A stretch of 64,000 nt of DNA, from positions 806,001-870,000 of the forward strand of contig NZ_AP018664.1 of the NCBI RefSeq assembly GCF_003967075.1. Reading direction: 5' to 3'. The translations under genes were made by a program, and so were the position numbers. The DNA is from Sphingobium amiense (lineage in GTDB: Bacteria > Pseudomonadota > Alphaproteobacteria > Sphingomonadales > Sphingomonadaceae). Positions within the stretch are counted from its first letter, which is position 1. Each line of letters begins with the position of its first letter. Positions 22,849 to 29,800 of this stretch are shown in pieces. The notes below the pieces were generated by a model. It ran no database searches. It saw nothing but the letters and a program-made list of their open reading frames with translations, and had not been told where the DNA came from.

Positions 22849-23157
22849 TCAGTTCCCGAGGAAACGCTTGCGACGCTCCGCGGCATCGACCTTGATTAGC
22901 GCTTCGTTGGCGTTCGCGCATTCACCGCCGCGCACTGAGCCGTCGCGACATCCTGCGACGACCTCACGGGCTTCTTCGATGTTCGCCTCGAAATACTGGG
23001 TGCCTCGCGCCTGAGTCGCCGAGGCCGGCGTAGGCGTCGGGTTGACAGCGACAGTCGTGTTCGGCGACGGCATGATGACCGGGCGAAGGATAAATCCGCC
23101 CATGAAGCCGACGACCAAAGTCACTAGCACGATGATGAGTGTCTTTCCCCGAAACAT
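22849..23157 (-). CDS. Entry-exclusion-like small membrane protein
   Basis: A 102-residue protein with one N-terminal TM segment (TLIIVLVTLVVGFMGGFIL), a Pro/Thr linker and a C-terminal helical part with two Cys (VVAGCRDGSVRGGECANANEAL ... RKRFLG). The layout of TM, linker and paired Cys before RRKRFL resembles EexN/TrbK-type exclusion proteins, including the trbK-alt at 18082. It converges on the trb operon, ending 14 bp past the DUF2274 stop. Family assignment is tentative. Confidence 0.55.
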   Translation of the reverse strand: MFRGKTLIIVLVTLVVGFMGGFILRPVIMPSPNTTVAVNPTPTPASATQARGTQYFEANIEEAREVVAGCRDGSVRGGECANANEALIKVDAAERRKRFLGN

Positions 23158-23188: not shown

Positions 23189-24112
23189 CTACTGGAATCG
23201 TGGTGCGAAATCAAAAGAGAGCGCGTAGCGTGTCTTGATGAAACCGAGAAATCGTCGGAGGGCCGGGTTGCGATTTTTGTCTCGCCAATATCCTGCATAA
23301 CCGGCAAGCGCCGGACCTTGCTCACCGTGAATCGGGCGATAGACGAGATCCGGGTAGCGCGCCCCGGTGGAGCCTTCGCAAACGATGCTGACCGCCGAGC
23401 CGCCGCCGAGAATGCTCAGGATCGTCTCGCGACTGCACCGGTGCATCTGTATGTCCGGGGTGGCGCCGGACACGGCCAGTCGCCCCAGCAGCATGTCTCG
23501 CATCTCCGCGCCCGGATCGGCGGCGGGCAGGTAGAAGCGCTCTCCGCGCAAATCGGTCCAATGAACGACGTCCCGTTCCGCCAGCGGGTGCGTCTCCGGC
23601 AGCGCCGCGAGCATCCGCTCGCTCCACAGCGGCTCGCACCGGAAGCCGTCATGGCTGGTCGCGCCCATCAAGATCGCGATGTCGATCTCGCCGGTGTCCA
23701 GCCCGGCGAGCAGGACGCTGCGGTCAGCTTCCACGCACCCGACTTCAACGTCGGGATGCGCGTCGCGCCAGCCCATCGTCGTCGCTCGGAGATTACCGGC
23801 CGAGACCGAGCTATTGTGTCCGAGTATGAGGCCGCCCGCACGGCCCTCGCCGGCCGCGCGCATCATCACCACGAGCTTGTCAGCCGTCGCTACCATCGGC
23901 TTTGCGCCGCGAACGAAGGCATTGCCGGCGAGTGTCATCGTGACGCCTGCGCGCGAACGCTCGAAGATCGGCATCCCGATCGAGCGCTCCAGTTTCTTGA
24001 TGACACGGCTGAGCGTGGATTGCTCGATGTCGAGCGCGCGGGCTGCACGGTAGAAGCTGCCGTGATCCGCAGCCGCGATAGCATAGCGAAGCTGCCGAAT
24101 GTCGAACGACAT
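23189..24112 (-). CDS. LysR-family transcriptional regulator
   Basis: A 307-residue regulator. Seen: an N-terminal winged HTH (IRQLRYAIAAADHGSFYRAARALDIEQSTLSRVIKKLE, residues 5-42) and a substrate-binding domain from about residue 90 (GGLILGHNSSVSAGNL, ...GEIDIAILMG, ...VSIVCEGSTG). LysR genes of this kind commonly follow trb operons in sphingomonad ICEs. No divergent partner gene is adjacent: upstream, 39 bp away, is the 3' end of the VIT-domain gene on the same strand. Effector and targets cannot be told. Confidence 0.9.
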   Translation of the reverse strand: MSFDIRQLRYAIAAADHGSFYRAARALDIEQSTLSRVIKKLERSIGMPIFERSRAGVTMTLAGNAFVRGAKPMVATADKLVVMMRAAGEGRAGGLILGHNSSVSAGNLRATTMGWRDAHPDVEVGCVEADRSVLLAGLDTGEIDIAILMGATSHDGFRCEPLWSERMLAALPETHPLAERDVVHWTDLRGERFYLPAADPGAEMRDMLLGRLAVSGATPDIQMHRCSRETILSILGGGSAVSIVCEGSTGARYPDLVYRPIHGEQGPALAGYAGYWRDKNRNPALRRFLGFIKTRYALSFDFAPRFQ

Positions 24113-24151: not shown

Positions 24152-25834
24152 CTACGATCCCGGAGTGAGAAGAAGGATGCCAGCCGATGTCACGAAGAAA
24201 GTCAGCGCGAAGTTGAGAACACCGAGGACCGCAGTGAAACGGCGCGCATCGCGCATGATGGGCATCAGAAGAAACGGCAAGACCGCCGACGCTGCGAGCA
24301 AGCCACCTTGCACGGGGATCATCCAGTTCGGGATTGGCATAAAGCCGTAAGTGAGGTCGTCTCCGAGCGGCCCGGCGACGATTGCGGCGATCCATGGCAA
24401 TGGCAGCACGAGCAGAAACGGCAGCCGTCGCCAGGCGAGCGATCCCTCGCGGGGCAGGAAAGGTATCGCACCCAACAGCATCAAACCGACAAAGGCTATG
24501 AGCTTTGGCGGTAGCGGGACGTCGATAAACTGAAATGCGGCGACTATCCCCAGAAGGGTCAGGACCGCCGGAACCCACTTCAGCCAGCCGCGCGGCGGCC
24601 TAGCGCCGGGTTTAATATACTCGTCCTTGGAGGGAAGCGTGGGAGCATTTCGCGCAGGGCTCACATCAGGGAACGGCTCGAGCGCAACTGGACTCAGCGG
24701 CTCGCTCCCGAAGTCGACTGCCTCCATCCCGGCGAGAGCCAGCTTCCGCAACGTCGAGATTTCGTCGGGAAGCTCGCCTTCCGGTCCGATGAACGCCAGA
24801 CTGGTGTGGCGGCTCAGAACATTGGCGGCCAGCAGAACGGCGGCCGGCGTTTGAGGCGTAGCCGCTTCGACAAATCCAGCGGCGGCGAAAGCGCGCATCC
24901 CTCGGGCATTGGGAGCGATCCCCCACATGCCGTGGTGACCCGGCGCAACTGTCCCATCGCTCGGTAGCGGCGCCGTTACGCGAATTTCGCCAGCGGATGT
25001 CTGCGTGATGCCGAAAATCCAGTCATTGCGGCCGCTGATCACGCTGCCTTCGGGATTGCCTGGGTGCCGGAAGGTTTCGATGCCGCGTTGCGACGTTACT
25101 TCCCAGCCGCCGGGCTGGCCGACTTGCCATTCGCTATGATCGAGCGAGCCACCTTCGAGCGCAGTGATTTCCAGGAAGATCGGTGTCGAGCATTCGACGC
25201 CGATCAGCTCGTTCGCGGTGAGTTCCCGATCCGGATAGAGCTGCCCGGAAATCGTAACACGCAGCGCTTCCGCGCTGACAATCAGACTCGCGGAATGGCG
25301 TTCCGGTGTGGTGACGGCAGCGTCGGCGTCGGCGAGGCGAAACAGCGCGGCTTGTGATGCGGCGCTGAGGTGGATGAGCAATGTCGCTCTATTTTCTTCG
25401 GGTCGGGCGAGCGGCCTTATGCTCCAGGTCAGAATCTCGACCTGCGCGCCTGATTCGATCCCCGCAATCGAAATCATGGGAACGTCATGCTCCAGCAGCT
25501 CATAGAGAATTGCACGCCGACCCTCGGCGACAGCCGCATCATGTGCTCGTCGTGCGCGCCGGGCAGGTTGCGGAGCGGCGTGATATTCGGCGCCATTGAT
25601 GCGGACGATAAGGCGATGGAGGATTTCGTGCGGTGCAAGTGGAGGCAATGTCAGGACCGCTTCAACCAATCCGTCGCTCGAATTTATAAATCGACGGACG
25701 GTCGAGATATGCGCCAGCGGCACCACCATCTGAATCTCGATCTTCGTCTCATCCAGTACCAGCGGCGGCAACCCGACCAGTCCGTTTCGAAAGAGTGCGG
25801 CGAGCGGATCAACCAGCAGCGTGCTTGCACTCAT
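24152..25834 (-). CDS. VIT-domain protein with five C-terminal TM segments
   Basis: A 560-residue protein that I read as an N-terminal VIT (vault/inter-alpha-trypsin) domain and a membrane C-terminus. VIT evidence, about residues 10-150: LVEAVLTLPPLAPHEIL, VRINGAEYHA, then ARRAHDAAVAEGRRAIL and a VPMISIAGIESGAQVEIL strand, matching the AR-AYEEA-GRRA-LLE then IPPGETVEV pattern. No MIDAS motif (DxSxS) of a von Willebrand A domain follows, which is unusual for VIT proteins. Five hydrophobic helices occupy the last 160 residues. The ATG at 25834 has AAGGAGG upstream; the gene overlaps the MerR gene by 26 bp. Last gene of the six-gene operon. Confidence 0.75.
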   Translation of the reverse strand: MSASTLLVDPLAALFRNGLVGLPPLVLDETKIEIQMVVPLAHISTVRRFINSSDGLVEAVLTLPPLAPHEILHRLIVRINGAEYHAAPQPARRARRAHDAAVAEGRRAILYELLEHDVPMISIAGIESGAQVEILTWSIRPLARPEENRATLLIHLSAASQAALFRLADADAAVTTPERHSASLIVSAEALRVTISGQLYPDRELTANELIGVECSTPIFLEITALEGGSLDHSEWQVGQPGGWEVTSQRGIETFRHPGNPEGSVISGRNDWIFGITQTSAGEIRVTAPLPSDGTVAPGHHGMWGIAPNARGMRAFAAAGFVEAATPQTPAAVLLAANVLSRHTSLAFIGPEGELPDEISTLRKLALAGMEAVDFGSEPLSPVALEPFPDVSPARNAPTLPSKDEYIKPGARPPRGWLKWVPAVLTLLGIVAAFQFIDVPLPPKLIAFVGLMLLGAIPFLPREGSLAWRRLPFLLVLPLPWIAAIVAGPLGDDLTYGFMPIPNWMIPVQGGLLAASAVLPFLLMPIMRDARRFTAVLGVLNFALTFFVTSAGILLLTPGS

Positions 25835-26189
25835 CGGGCGCCTCCTTCGCCAAGAGTTCCTCGATCTTCGCGGCGGCTTTGGCAGCAATCTTGGCAACAT
25901 CTCCACCCGCACCGATCAGGTCAGGCGCGATCACCAGCGTGACACCATTTGCGACCGGCACGGGAATGCCTTCACGCGCCTGAAGCAGCAGGCGGATAGC
26001 GGCAGGCGGAAAGCCAAGACCGCGCAGCCGGTCATAGCGGCGGATCGCGGTGACATGGACATCACTGTAGGTTGCATAGGTTCGCCCACCGGTTGGCGGC
26101 GGCACGAATCCTTCGGCGATCAGATAGCGGATCTGTCGCGGCGTGGTCCCGGTGACGGCGACCAGATCATCGAATTTGAGACCGGTCAT
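25809..26189 (-). CDS. MerR-family regulator
   Basis: A 126-residue protein with an N-terminal MerR winged helix: FDDLVAVTGTTPRQIRYLIAEGFVPPPTGGRTYATYSDVHVTAIRRYDRLRGLGFPPAAI. A short C-terminal part follows (VANGVTLVIAPDL, then an Ala/Lys helix). No Cys cluster for metal binding is seen. The ATG at 26189 overlaps the NADAR gene stop as ATGA. Its place inside the operon suggests autoregulation; the palindrome at 29720 is a candidate target. Confidence 0.82.
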   Translation of the reverse strand: MTGLKFDDLVAVTGTTPRQIRYLIAEGFVPPPTGGRTYATYSDVHVTAIRRYDRLRGLGFPPAAIRLLLQAREGIPVPVANGVTLVIAPDLIGAGGDVAKIAAKAAAKIEELLAKEAPDECKHAAG

Positions 26190-26815
26190 CGCGGCGCCGA
26201 TGCCGGTTCCCTGAGGCGGGCACGGATGCGCATCCAAATGTCGGCCAAGATCGCGCCGGGGATCGTGCGGCTGTCCCGGCGCACCTTGTGCGTGAGCCAG
26301 CGTTCTCCCGTTGCCAGCAGCGCAATGCGTGCCTCGTCATGCTGGGTGAACTTGGCCTCGCAGGCCGCGCGCATCAGCGCCCAATGCTCAGGGCAACCGG
26401 CCGCGATGGTTGCTCCGTCATAGGCGAACTCGGCCGGCTGATCGATGGCGCCGCCACGCCTCTTGGCCTCGGCGCCCCACAACTTGGCCATGGTCCGGCG
26501 TTCTGCGGGGCCAGGCTGCTTCAATCCCTGCCAGAAGCCTTCAATGCTAGCATAGCGCTCACCCCCAAACTCAAAGGGCGTATGCGCGAGATTGGAGATC
26601 GGCGCGAAACGCGACTCAATGCTGTGCACGATATTGAGCGGCGCGCGCCGGGCATCATCTTCCGGGCCGATTTCGCTGAACGCCATGCCCCGATCGCTCG
26701 CGGCGTGGAGTTGGAAGACATGGCCATCTGCCGCGCCCAGCAAGGCGCAGATCGCCTGTTCCTCGGGCGTTTCAACCGAAAGGCCGACGACATTGTTGCG
26801 CAAGCTGAGCTTCAT
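26186..26815 (-). CDS. NADAR-superfamily protein
   Basis: A 209-residue soluble protein. The middle and C-terminal parts align by eye with the YbiA/NADAR family: ISNLAHTPFEFGGERYASIEGFWQGLK corresponds to the FSNF...F/YGKTWPTSEHYFQAQK block with its Glu kept, and MRAACEAKFTQHDEARIALLATGERWLTH corresponds to the RRALRAKFEQHAELRALLLAT block. The family's YWGDG region is replaced by RRDSRTIPG. NADAR domains act on ADP-ribose-type nucleotides or ADP-ribosylated bases, some as antitoxins or defence proteins. The start at 26815 overlaps the preceding stop as ATGA; an ATG at 26854 with AAGGGG is the alternative. Confidence 0.78.
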   Translation of the reverse strand: MKLSLRNNVVGLSVETPEEQAICALLGAADGHVFQLHAASDRGMAFSEIGPEDDARRAPLNIVHSIESRFAPISNLAHTPFEFGGERYASIEGFWQGLKQPGPAERRTMAKLWGAEAKRRGGAIDQPAEFAYDGATIAAGCPEHWALMRAACEAKFTQHDEARIALLATGERWLTHKVRRDSRTIPGAILADIWMRIRARLREPASAPR

Positions 26816-26997
26816 TCTTTGCGTATCCACATGACAAGCAGAGTGATCGGCCATGCTGCCCCTTCGACCATGGTGGTGACCGCGCCATAGCCGGGGGTGC
26901 CATCGGCCCGATGCTTTTCGATGCCAACGAGCAAGGCCATCGCCAGATAGGCTGTTAGCAGCAGCTTGCCGGCAGCAGATGTCAGTCTTCCCATCAT
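26812..26997 (-). CDS. 61-residue membrane peptide
   Basis: A small protein (MMGRLTSAAG... to ...VMWIRKE) with two hydrophobic stretches (AGKLLLTAYLAMALLVGIE and AVTTMVEGAAWPITLLVMWI), predicted to be a two-pass membrane protein. It begins at 26997 overlapping the stop of the upstream envelope protein as ATGA and ends overlapping the NADAR gene start. Both overlaps are strong evidence of real translation. I do not recognise the family. Confidence 0.7.
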   Translation of the reverse strand: MMGRLTSAAGKLLLTAYLAMALLVGIEKHRADGTPGYGAVTTMVEGAAWPITLLVMWIRKE

Positions 26998-28694
26998 TTC
27001 TTGTCGCCGCCCGTTTGTTCGCCGCCGATCCCTAGATCTTTGAGTTGCGTGATCGCGCCTTGGGCTTCTGCCACCACCTGCGCCTTGTAGGGATCGGCGC
27101 CGGACGGATCGGAATACCCGGTGATGGGCACGCGCACCGACAGCAGGATGGTGGTCTGCGGAACCTGCGTCATGCATGACAGATAGGCGGCGGTCCTCCG
27201 ACATTCGAAATCGCGCGCCGGTATGCCGGGCATGGCCATCGGCTCGGCAAACGGTGTCGCGGTCCCGCTGTCCGGCGGGATCAGCAGTTGTTGAGCGGGT
27301 TTGCCATCGTGCATGCCGTCCAGCGCATTGGTCGCGTCGGTCGGGGCCACGAATGTGTCGAGGAAAACCTTCACCCTGCCCGGCCGATCGCTCGTGAAAC
27401 GGGTGAGGTGATTCCACGCGGGCGAGGTGATGCGGGCGTCCTCGTCCGGTTTCTGGGGCTGGCCATCCAGCGATTCCTCGTGCAGTGCCCATGCGCCATC
27501 GGTTACCGCACGGCGCAAGGTTTCCGTTTCGGTGGCTCCGCCGAAGTTGGTGGGGCGCAGGATCACGAACAGCGCGAACAGCGCCAGCACCACAGCACCA
27601 CCGATAATGCTCTTGCGCTGGCCAGGGGGCAGGGCGCGCCAGGCTTGCAGGTGGTCTGGCGGCTGGCCGGCGGGTTGCCTGGGACGACCATCTGTCGGTG
27701 TTGCGCCCGAAGCGGGACCGGCTTTGGCAACCGTGTCGGCATAGTTCATCCCGATGGGAATATCGGCGGGTTCAACAACCATGGTGGGCGGCAGACCGCC
27801 CGTTGCGGGCACCGCAATCGCTCGACGGCGTCGGAACCGCCGAATGCGAAATATCAGCCCGGCGATGATGGCAAGCGGCAGGCCGAAAACCAGCAGAAAA
27901 GCCCAGTCCCATGGTGTTTTGGGCTTTGGCTGTCCGATACTGGCAAGCGTTGGATCGGTAGGCATATTGTTCGCGATCTTGTCCATGACCGCGGCTCCCG
28001 CCTTGGCTGATATTTCGTCGACATCCATGATCGGTTCGACAACGAAACTGTAGTCCTCGACCAGTTTCACGGTCTCGCCGGGGGCATAGAAGATGTGCTT
28101 GCCATCTTCATTGCGGTAAAATGCGCCCAATGAGGATGTTCCCCATTCCGAGGCTGCGTCACCACTTGCGGGGGGCAGTCCGGAATGAGTGACACCGTCA
28201 ATTTTCTGCAAGAATTCAAGCACAAACCATCCGCTGGGCGTGCCCAATTTTACATATTGGCTTTCGTGCCCCTTGATCGTGACCGGCGACTCCAGCGAAA
28301 TAGTTTTATTGGCCGCAACCACGGTCACGCCCTCGCAGATATTGGGCGGGGCCTCGCCGATGAATATGATGTCGGTCGCCGGATTGTCGCTCGCCCCGCA
28401 ATGTCGCGCGGTGAGGGCTCTGTCGACCAATCCGCCATTGGGCCTGCCGCGTATGACGATGCCGCCCCAACGCGAGACGAAATAGGGTCTTGCATCGGCA
28501 CCTGCGTCAGGAGCGTCCGGCGCGCGGTCCCAGACGGCTTCCATCGGTTGGCCATTGGGTGATGCCGGCGCGGCGGCCATGGCCTTGATTTTTTCGGCTA
28601 TGGCACGGGCCTCGTCGGCCGTCTGCGCCATTGCCGAAGATGTTCCACCGAGTAGCGCAGCCAGTAACAGCAGCGTCCCAAAACGATATTGCAT
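26994..28694 (-). CDS. Envelope protein with signal peptide and two internal TM segments
   Basis: A 566-residue protein of unknown family. Layout seen: a signal peptide (residues 1-23, ending SSAMAQ), an exported domain of about 240 residues with VSRWGGIVIRGRPNGG and GHESQYVKLGTPSGWFVLEFLQ, and a TM at about 265-285 (WAFLLVFGLPLAIIAGLIF). A Pro-rich cytosolic loop of about 80 residues follows, then a second TM (IIGGAVVLALFALFVIL) and a C-terminal exported domain with two Cys (ECRRTAAYLSCM). AGGAGGAGG precedes the ATG at 28694. It lies 31 bp after the Sel1 gene and overlaps the 61-residue gene by 4 bp. Confidence 0.75.
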   Translation of the reverse strand: MQYRFGTLLLLAALLGGTSSAMAQTADEARAIAEKIKAMAAAPASPNGQPMEAVWDRAPDAPDAGADARPYFVSRWGGIVIRGRPNGGLVDRALTARHCGASDNPATDIIFIGEAPPNICEGVTVVAANKTISLESPVTIKGHESQYVKLGTPSGWFVLEFLQKIDGVTHSGLPPASGDAASEWGTSSLGAFYRNEDGKHIFYAPGETVKLVEDYSFVVEPIMDVDEISAKAGAAVMDKIANNMPTDPTLASIGQPKPKTPWDWAFLLVFGLPLAIIAGLIFRIRRFRRRRAIAVPATGGLPPTMVVEPADIPIGMNYADTVAKAGPASGATPTDGRPRQPAGQPPDHLQAWRALPPGQRKSIIGGAVVLALFALFVILRPTNFGGATETETLRRAVTDGAWALHEESLDGQPQKPDEDARITSPAWNHLTRFTSDRPGRVKVFLDTFVAPTDATNALDGMHDGKPAQQLLIPPDSGTATPFAEPMAMPGIPARDFECRRTAAYLSCMTQVPQTTILLSVRVPITGYSDPSGADPYKAQVVAEAQGAITQLKDLGIGGEQTGGDKK

Positions 28695-28725
28695 GATCCC
28701 CTCCTCCTGCTGCGTGGCTCGACGC

Positions 28726-29676
28726 CTATGGATTGATCGTGTTGCCGTTGCCGTCGACGACGCATTGGCCATTTTGCCAGCGACCGCCTGCACCATCGCA
28801 TCTTTGGCTCTGCGCAGCGGCATAAGGATCGCCTGAACCACCGCTGCCGCCTCGCTGCGTTCCGTTGCCGCCAGCGCGCAGGTTGGCCGCTTCCCACCGC
28901 GCGATTGTGCTGCCTTTCGCGGCCGCTTTGTCATAATAGGCAAGCGCCCTGGCGCGGTCGGGGCGCACGCCCTCGCCGAACTGGTACATGAATGCGACGT
29001 CCCGCATGGCCTGGACAAGGCCTCCGGTAGCGGCCTGTTCATACAGTTTGAACGCGGCCACCTTGTCGATGCCGACCCCCAGGCCAAGATGATAGGCGCG
29101 CCCCAGCAATTCTTGGCCTTCGAGACTGCCAGCTGCTGCCGACCGGCGCGCATAGGGCACCGCCGCGGCATAGAGCTTGAGATCCGTCAGGACGCTGGCC
29201 CGCCGATAGTCGCGCGTTCCAGGCAATCGGGCATCGACGTCCAATTGGCTACGCGCCATGGCATAGCCGGCCCGTGCCGCTTGCTGTCGCAACTGAACGG
29301 CGCGCGCTGGGTCGAAGGGCACGCCCACACCGACATCATATAGACCGGCGAGGGACACCATCGCCTGCGGCAGGCCAGCCTCCCCGCTTTTCTGCAACCA
29401 GCGCGCGCCCTCGGGAATATCCCGGCGCGTCCCCTGGCCGAATAGATACATCATGCCCGCCATGTACTGCGCGCGGGCGTCGCCTGTCTGCGCAGCGGCG
29501 ACAGCCTCCCCCAGCGAGGGATTGGCCAGCGCAACCGTCGTGCCGACGCCAGCTATGCAAAGGGCTAGCGCCAAGGTCGCCACCCGACTGAACCGGCGCA
29601 GGCGCTGCGGCGGCGCCTGAGGCAAGGCAGCCTCTCTGCGGTCAACCGCATACGCGTCTGGTTTGTTGAATGACAT
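28726..29676 (-). CDS. Sel1-repeat protein with membrane anchor
   Basis: A 316-residue protein and first gene of the minus-strand operon. Seen: a cytoplasmic N-terminus of about 28 residues, one TM (VATLALALCIAGVGTTVALA), then four or so Sel1 repeats: ARAQYMAGMMYLFGQGTRRDIPEGARWLQKSGEAG, PQAMVSLAGLYDVGVGV, GQELLGRAYHLGLGVGIDKVAAFKLYEQAA and AMRDVAFMYQFGEGVRPDRARALAYYDKAA. The C-terminal tail is Gly-rich. Sel1 arrays are protein-binding scaffolds, so it may anchor the other products in the envelope. Confidence 0.85.
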   Translation of the reverse strand: MSFNKPDAYAVDRREAALPQAPPQRLRRFSRVATLALALCIAGVGTTVALANPSLGEAVAAAQTGDARAQYMAGMMYLFGQGTRRDIPEGARWLQKSGEAGLPQAMVSLAGLYDVGVGVPFDPARAVQLRQQAARAGYAMARSQLDVDARLPGTRDYRRASVLTDLKLYAAAVPYARRSAAAGSLEGQELLGRAYHLGLGVGIDKVAAFKLYEQAATGGLVQAMRDVAFMYQFGEGVRPDRARALAYYDKAAAKGSTIARWEAANLRAGGNGTQRGGSGGSGDPYAAAQSQRCDGAGGRWQNGQCVVDGNGNTINP

Positions 29677-29719
29677 TCCTGACCTCCCCGAATCCCGAAG
29701 CGACTCGACGGCACTATAA

Positions 29720-29736
29720 TGACAAAATATTTGTCA
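29720..29736. promoter_or_regulatory. Perfect TGACAAA dyad beside a TATAAT box
   Basis: TGACAAA (29720-29726), three bases, then TTTGTCA (29730-29736): a perfect 7-bp inverted repeat in the 124-bp gap between the Sel1 operon and the small exported-protein gene. A TATAAT hexamer (29715-29720) abuts it on the plus strand, and the minus strand has TTGACA at 29732-29737. It looks like an operator controlling one or both divergent promoters. The MerR protein of the operon is a candidate binder; inferred. Confidence 0.5.
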
Positions 29737-29800
29737 ATAGAAAGCGAAATCGCTATGAAGTCGTTGAAAATCGCAGTCGTGCGGCTGGAAAGGGCAGAAA

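Follow-up and report, generated by a model that had tools for sequence, protein, structure and literature searches.

A six-gene operon of Sphingobium amiense as a probable version of a MerR-VIT envelope regulatory module with a predicted operator

In a 64,000-nucleotide stretch of the Sphingobium amiense genome (contig NZ_AP018664.1, positions 806,001–870,000; hereafter the window) we analyzed an operon of six minus-strand genes, which in order encode a Sel1-repeat protein, an envelope protein (env), a 61-residue membrane peptide, a NADAR-superfamily protein, a small MerR-type regulator and a VIT-domain protein. A sequence-only reading of this DNA had described the unit as a combination of NADAR, VIT, Sel1, MerR and new membrane proteins; comparison with relatives showed that it is not a NADAR system, the steady core being the pair of MerR and VIT, and that NADAR, Sel1 and env occur in few of the 24 clusters compared. 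On balance, the operon is probably one lineage's version of a MerR-VIT envelope regulatory module in which, judging from the sequence comparisons, MerR would bind an inverted repeat, VIT would be its membrane-bound signaling partner and NADAR would be an optional ADP-ribose-type hydrolase. The repeat, which ties the operon to its own MerR, was absent from the sequence-only reading. That reading had the six genes right as to strand, order and tight packing: Sel1 and env are separated by 31 bp, 4-bp ATGA overlaps join env to the peptide, the peptide to NADAR and NADAR to MerR, and MerR and VIT overlap by 26 bp.

The MerR-VIT core and its operator

With three aligned MerR proteins as the query, a scan of 84,980 species, each represented by one genome, identified 17 MerR loci; VIT lay directly behind MerR in 16 of these, the 17th (L028) being cut by the end of its contig. 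Among these loci were ones from Sphingobium, Sphingomonas, Novosphingobium, Chelatococcus, Rhodopseudomonas, Caulobacteraceae and Bacteroidota bins. The S. amiense genome itself has a second copy, at 2.195 Mb, and a Novosphingobium plasmid has one. The module was rare, with matches in 4 of 397 family genomes at an E-value of 1e-20 and in 4 of 385 class genomes at 1e-18, S. amiense being included in each count and one of the class matches (G886) being the same locus as L027. We rejected recurrent carriage of the operon by plasmids or phages, since a MerR relative was found in only one of 72,556 plasmid records (E-value 1e-15) and none was confirmed among IMG/VR viral contigs with the peptide patterns used. 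These counts rest on whole-genome samples and on one contig scan, the sensitivity of which is limited by its exact peptide patterns.

The 24 clusters counted were the window, L011, L012, L015–L031, L040, L041, L062 and L064 (L013 duplicates L018 and L063 duplicates L027, and neither pair was treated as independent); gene calls in the relatives came from a simple script and are rough. A DxSxS motif of the VWA type, i.e., resembling a metal ion-dependent adhesion site, accompanied VIT in 13 clusters and was absent from 10, including the window, the count leaving out L028, which ends behind MerR. In L041, which ends at 3.4 kb, VIT and VWA are in separate open reading frames (ORFs). Pfam confirmed the VWA domain in L022, L023, L025 and L029, that of L040 scoring under the cut-off. 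The VWA-less forms grouped together in both the MerR and the VIT-domain trees (support of 0.97 and 1.00, respectively; unrooted FastTree), which suits one loss or one gain of VWA.

Reading the DNA upstream of MerR in the relatives, we identified a 23-bp inverted repeat, TTTYGACA-N7-TGTCRAAA, and a copy of this predicted operator lies in the window 40 bp upstream of the Sel1 ATG. Against a matrix of 31 sites from 16 loci other than the window this copy scored 32.2 bits; the next best site in the 64 kb scored 7.9, and none of 60 first-order Markov sequences reached the window score (highest 23.1 bits). With 18 bits as the minimum score, 22 loci and the window yielded 41 sites, all within MerR-VIT clusters (38 were distinct, and 31 of the 41 had gone into training), and six of the eight clusters outside training had a site (the window, L015, L016, L017, L026 and L062, with L026 close to training locus L025). 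Across the 4.77 Mb of the S. amiense genome six places matched within two mismatches, four of them at the two MerR-VIT loci and the two background places scoring 24.1 and 11.3 bits; the reversed control gave none. Sixteen control genomes, 14 without this MerR plus G016 and G017 without this VIT, contained no site at zero or one mismatch, and G011, which has the MerR, contained three, all in its cluster.

Besides those preceding MerR-VIT, sites stood before the genes for p424 and p253 in L011, L012, L018 and L019, before p253 in L020, before a 465-residue protein in L015, before a 489-residue protein and the counterpart of the N-terminal part of env (env-N) in L016, and, in L017, before a protein with zinc-ribbon-like CxxC motifs (judged by eye). 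Six loci had two copies 41–46 bp apart, with TTGAC between the copies in L022, L023, L028 and L040 and close variants of it in L024 and L027. By eye, the second, downstream copy at such loci seems to lie across the presumed -10 element and ribosome-binding site, an arrangement suited to repression. In classical MerR systems the operator lies between the -35 and -10 elements, within a long spacer, and activation proceeds via DNA distortion. The operon shares with the MerR family (PF13411/PF00376) a DNA-binding domain and a dyad operator, here a predicted one; it differs in that the site of the module often seems to overlap the start region rather than just the long spacer, and in that MerR adjoins VIT in every readable cluster.

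A search of the open-access literature, with subscription journals and preprints outside its scope, found no description of MerR paired with VIT or VWA, and MerR-VIT with its own operator is apparently an undescribed regulatory module. VIT domains span bacteria to humans, and the conserved pair together with a readable operator offers a direct handle on VIT function; the operator also provides a DNA signature by which envelope genes of the module could be gathered.

Proteins of the operon and their order in relatives

Table 1. Features of the operon and the adjoining regulator gene (positions in the window)
Feature	Position	Strand	Basis
Sel1-repeat protein, 316 residues, first gene of the operon	28726..29676	-	PF08238, 90.1 bits (cut-off 30.7), 4 stretches
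env protein, 566 residues from ATG 28694	26994..28694	-	no Pfam family
Membrane peptide, 61 residues	26812..26997	-	one above-threshold hydrophobic segment; no Pfam family
NADAR-superfamily protein, phage Gp30.3 type, 209 residues	26186..26815	-	PF08010, 43.1 bits (cut-off 36)
Small MerR-type regulator, 126 residues, conserved C-terminal tail	25809..26189	-	PF13411 (MerR_1), 50.3 bits (cut-off 21.6); 18-row alignment
VIT protein with transmembrane (TM) domain, 560 residues	24152..25834	-	PF08487, 33.6 bits (cut-off 26.5); AlphaFold2 (AF2) model
Predicted MerR operator, inverted repeat TATTGACA-AATATTT-TGTCATTA	29717..29739	-	matrix score 32.2 bits
LysR-type regulator, 39 bp past VIT, same strand	23189..24112	-	PF00126 and PF03466

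The Sel1, VIT and MerR domain calls of the sequence-only reading all scored above their Pfam cut-offs (Table 1), and hydrophobicity agreed with its anchored Sel1 protein (one N-terminal segment), two-TM env and VIT protein with about five segments. Its NADAR call stands at the level of the superfamily, through the Gp30.3 family; the NADAR profile proper, PF08719, gave 23.3 bits and so fell below its cut-off of 35.1.

We took the VIT protein to begin at an ATG near the starts of its relatives, the mechanical ORF being one of 586 residues from a GTG. It lacks VWA and consists of VIT, an additional beta region and then a multi-TM domain with about five hydrophobic segments within residues 416–554; this C-terminal domain is common to the VIT proteins of the window, L015, L016 and L017, and resembles a separate protein, p147, of the second S. 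amiense cluster (L012:14287-14730; hhalign probability 95.7%). The AF2 model had a mean confidence (pLDDT) of 66.7, and its best Foldseek match was inter-alpha-inhibitor heavy chain 1 (6fpy, E-value 4.3e-9), with a TM-score of only 0.26 of the query. In that heavy chain, according to PMC10539598, a hybrid domain next to VIT holds VWA as an insertion, and the same source describes the functions of intracellular VIT proteins as generally unknown. The likeness to VIT-VWA proteins such as inter-alpha-inhibitor heavy chain, VWA5A and PARP4 (passages of PMC10539598 and PMC4245714) lies in the VIT fold and in the DxSxS motif of the 13 clusters noted above; by contrast, the VIT protein of the window is bacterial, lacks VWA, ends in a membrane domain and is paired with a DNA-binding protein. 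For its neighbor MerR, profile searches recognized no separate effector or ligand domain within the 126 residues, which sets it apart from the MerR family.

In the NADAR protein E92 and K99 are invariant among six aligned proteins, and H176 sits at the catalytic Glu/Asp column, as in phage NADARs, aligning with His in three phage rows and in L016 and with Glu in L014. The roles of the active-site residues, and the last-strand His of phage NADARs, are treated in sections of PMC11543638 and PMC11125620; four tested NADAR subtypes, one of them from phage, removed ADP-ribose from guanosine in DNA (PMC11125620), and based on this it is plausible that the NADAR of the operon is enzymatically active. 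It carries an N-terminal extension of ~70 residues that is common to its L016 homolog. Set beside NADAR/Gp30.3/YbiA enzymes, including the DarT1-NADAR toxin-antitoxin pair, it matches in profile and in the active-site E, K and phage-type H; it differs in its extension, in its position in a MerR-VIT operon and in having no recognized ADP-ribosyltransferase (ART) adjoining. Pfam recognized no ART among the operon proteins, although env and the peptide belong to no family and an unrecognized ART is possible, and NADAR as the antitoxin of a neighboring ART is accordingly an unsupported candidate. The operon places a phage-type NADAR among envelope genes and not in a toxin-antitoxin pair. A NADAR with a last-strand Glu, of the YbiA type, is encoded in another genome of the family (G045; L014 9221-9745), which has no MerR-VIT match.

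The env protein has an N-terminal hydrophobic stretch (residues 5–23) and TM segments at 264–282 and 361–379, giving a layout of signal-like segment, N-domain, TM, linker, TM and C-domain. Its N-terminal part is 39% identical to a separate protein of L016, a locus in the metagenome-assembled genome (MAG) RBC027, and its C-terminal part resembles p259 of the same locus (L016:5043-5822; BlastP E-value 1e-5 for the single pair, hhalign probability 73%), the gene for which lies 2.6 kb further upstream with other genes intervening. From these matches, env is probably a fusion whose two halves the MAG encodes as distinct proteins. Its AF2 model was unusable (pLDDT 37.2). An all-against-all hhalign comparison of 22 sets supported only the pairs env-C/L016 p259 and VIT-TM/p147, and a single family of the env C-domain with p253, p424, p465 and p489 was rejected on this basis. 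The hydrophobic segment of the Sel1 protein covers residues 32–50. The ExoR-ExoS-ChvI system exemplifies control by periplasmic Sel1 proteins, and the operon resembles it in having a Sel1-repeat protein with an export-like segment beside a regulator, with a weak match to the ExoR model (22 bits); it differs in that there is no sensor kinase in the operon and the 450-bit ExoR cut-off was not approached.

The gene order, whose recurrence the sequence-only reading had proposed as a check, is partly conserved elsewhere. In L016 it runs as in the window, with env-N (39% identity), NADAR (76%), MerR (78%) and VIT (66%), and in L017, from another distant MAG, a 60-residue ORF that is 46% identical to the membrane peptide directly precedes MerR (68%) and VIT (38%), these genes coming after one for a CxxC-motif membrane protein. 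Sphingobium subterraneum (L015) retains MerR (83%) and VIT (55%), with NADAR only as a remnant recognizable over residues 147–202, and in L040 a Sel1 protein comes after MerR and VIT-VWA. At an E-value of 1e-3 the only matches across the clusters were NADAR in L015 and L016, env in L016, the peptide in L017 and Sel1 in L040, short contigs limiting this search. A lack of NADAR or VIT folds, or of any conserved gene order, had been named as what would refute the sequence-only reading, and neither was what we found.

Proposed mechanism and competing explanations

As predicted from the sequence, MerR would bind the repeat and control Sel1-env-peptide-NADAR-MerR-VIT as one autoregulated unit, and we infer that it would act by repression. 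The cytoplasmic VIT protein, anchored by its own membrane domain or elsewhere carrying VWA, would be the dedicated partner of MerR and would hold or release it depending on the condition of the membrane or periplasm; this is suggested by the constant adjacency of MerR and VIT, the lack of a recognized ligand domain in MerR and the fact that VIT is membrane-anchored or carries VWA. A sensing or scaffolding layer in the envelope would be formed by the Sel1 and env proteins, and NADAR would have an accessory role, hydrolyzing N-glycosidic ADP-ribose-type adducts or nucleotides. More tentatively, we raise the possibility that MerR-VIT is a new kind of membrane-to-DNA switch, in which an envelope-sensing VIT or VIT-VWA protein directly captures or frees MerR at the operator and lineages plug in their own envelope outputs, among them here a NADAR that couples the switch to ADP-ribose chemistry.

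Several results weigh against the operon as a MerR-VIT envelope module. The window site has two mismatches, as background places do, and was already known when the mismatch pattern was drawn up; unrelated palindromes scored up to 28.8 bits with the matrix in genomes that lack this MerR; and the motif of the relatives at up to three mismatches gave one window match against 0.20 expected, with at least one match in 19 of 100 shuffles. The match persuades by its position 40 bp before the first gene. We found no consensus sigma-70 promoter at Sel1, the separate env-C gene of L016 has no operator-like site in front of it, L041 has only a look-alike with 8-bp spacing and the distant L064 has no site. 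No locus other than the window had all six genes, and NADAR occurs in 2 of the 24 clusters and is decayed in a third, on account of which it may be linked to the module only incidentally. The MerR-VIT-VWA arrangement of the distant genome G612, where the operator is absent, and L041 were kept as negatives.

Among the alternatives, a membrane-anchored anti-phage or conflict system fares best, although we consider it unlikely. Expression of such an operon would stay low until infection, NADAR would remove or answer ADP-ribose-type modifications or signals, and the membrane proteins would be the effector. Its NADAR is indeed closest to the phage Gp30.3 family, the spread of the module is patchy (the 4 of 397 family genomes above include its own), and conjugation genes lie next door. 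In addition, predicted conflict systems can contain Sel1 repeats, VWA and trypsin-like domains, and in the vWA-MoxR systems among these the VWA core is constant while membrane, peptidase and Sel1 parts are exchanged (passages of Kaur et al. 2020, PMC7159879); two of the relatives' clusters contain a trypsin-like protein. However, among the six genes Pfam found no family of toxins, effectors, nucleases or ARTs and no MoxR, the AAA+ ATPase of those systems, and the words VIT, MerR and NADAR are absent from the main text of PMC7159879. PADLOC identified no system, giving only a weak helix-turn-helix match to mad1 (22.3 bits) over that of MerR, and the two-cluster occurrence of NADAR and the lack of a confirmed MerR relative in IMG/VR, with the patterns used, also speak against this explanation. 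The defence complex considered in the sequence-only reading is thus without direct support.

We give still less credence to the idea that MerR-VIT is a real pair and that NADAR, env and Sel1 are chance passengers on a mobile region with no joint function. Neighbors do vary between lineages, L015 kept MerR-VIT while its NADAR decayed, and env-N was found in one of 296 order genomes, that of S. amiense itself. But the operator before Sel1 and the tight overlaps place all six genes under one likely control, and the order of env-N, NADAR, MerR and VIT is kept in L016 at 39–78% identity, where an operator-like site also stands before env-N, as is that of the peptide, MerR and VIT in L017. It is very improbable that the operon is a standard metal or redox response in which MerR itself detects the ligand and VIT serves only as an output: the nearest NCBIfam models are CueR, CadR-PbrR and MerR, and the paralogous cluster lies beside apparent metal-efflux genes of the resistance-nodulation-division (RND) type (by eye), but all equivalog scores are far below cut-off (CueR 21.2 vs. 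147.4 bits), no cysteine occurs at invariant or nearly invariant columns of the 18-row MerR alignment, and Pfam found no efflux or detoxification family in the operon of the window.

Flanking conjugation genes and further clusters

Upstream are trb-type conjugation genes (relaxase/DUF3363, VirD4-type, T2SSE/TrbB-type, TrbE-type, TrbL and CagX), and past VIT, on the strand of the operon, come the LysR gene and then a small EexN-like gene, with the conjugation cluster ending just past them. The conjugation genes behind which the sequence-only reading placed the operon, as cargo of an integrative and conjugative element (ICE), are real; membership in an ICE is not established, because the nearest tyrosine-integrase match (PF00589) in the genome lies ~187 kb away from the window, in a search that covered neither other recombinases nor attachment sites. 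Nine conjugation proteins of the window gave no match at an E-value of 1e-5 in the cluster DNA of the relatives (3 to 20 kb each). The LysR gene is possibly co-transcribed with the operon and lies outside the conserved module; among the clusters its matches were generic (26–28% identity, in L019 and L064). The EexN-like gene, at 22849-23157, encodes a 102-residue protein with a weak likeness to EexN entry-exclusion lipoproteins (22.6 bits, cut-off 33). Elsewhere in the genome, equal-score sets of integrase matches recur several times on contigs C1, C2 and C3, and suggest multi-copy mobile elements.

The second S. amiense cluster (L012, 2186000-2205000) has three operator-like sites and the envelope genes p424, p180, p147 and p253; it adjoins the apparent RND genes and contains an integrase match at 2194579-2195079. 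Two MerR-VIT clusters include a trypsin-like protease (L011 11834-13333 and L019 12879-14375), divergent from p253 across an operator-like site. In L064 (8613-10480) a distant MerR (30% identity) is followed by VIT-VWA without an operator, and the module may have further branches with other DNA specificity. The Chelatococcus cluster (L020 9162-17738) adjoins genes for a MotA/ExbB-type channel protein, a coiled-coil TM protein and two similar tetratricopeptide repeat proteins with CxxC in their N-termini.

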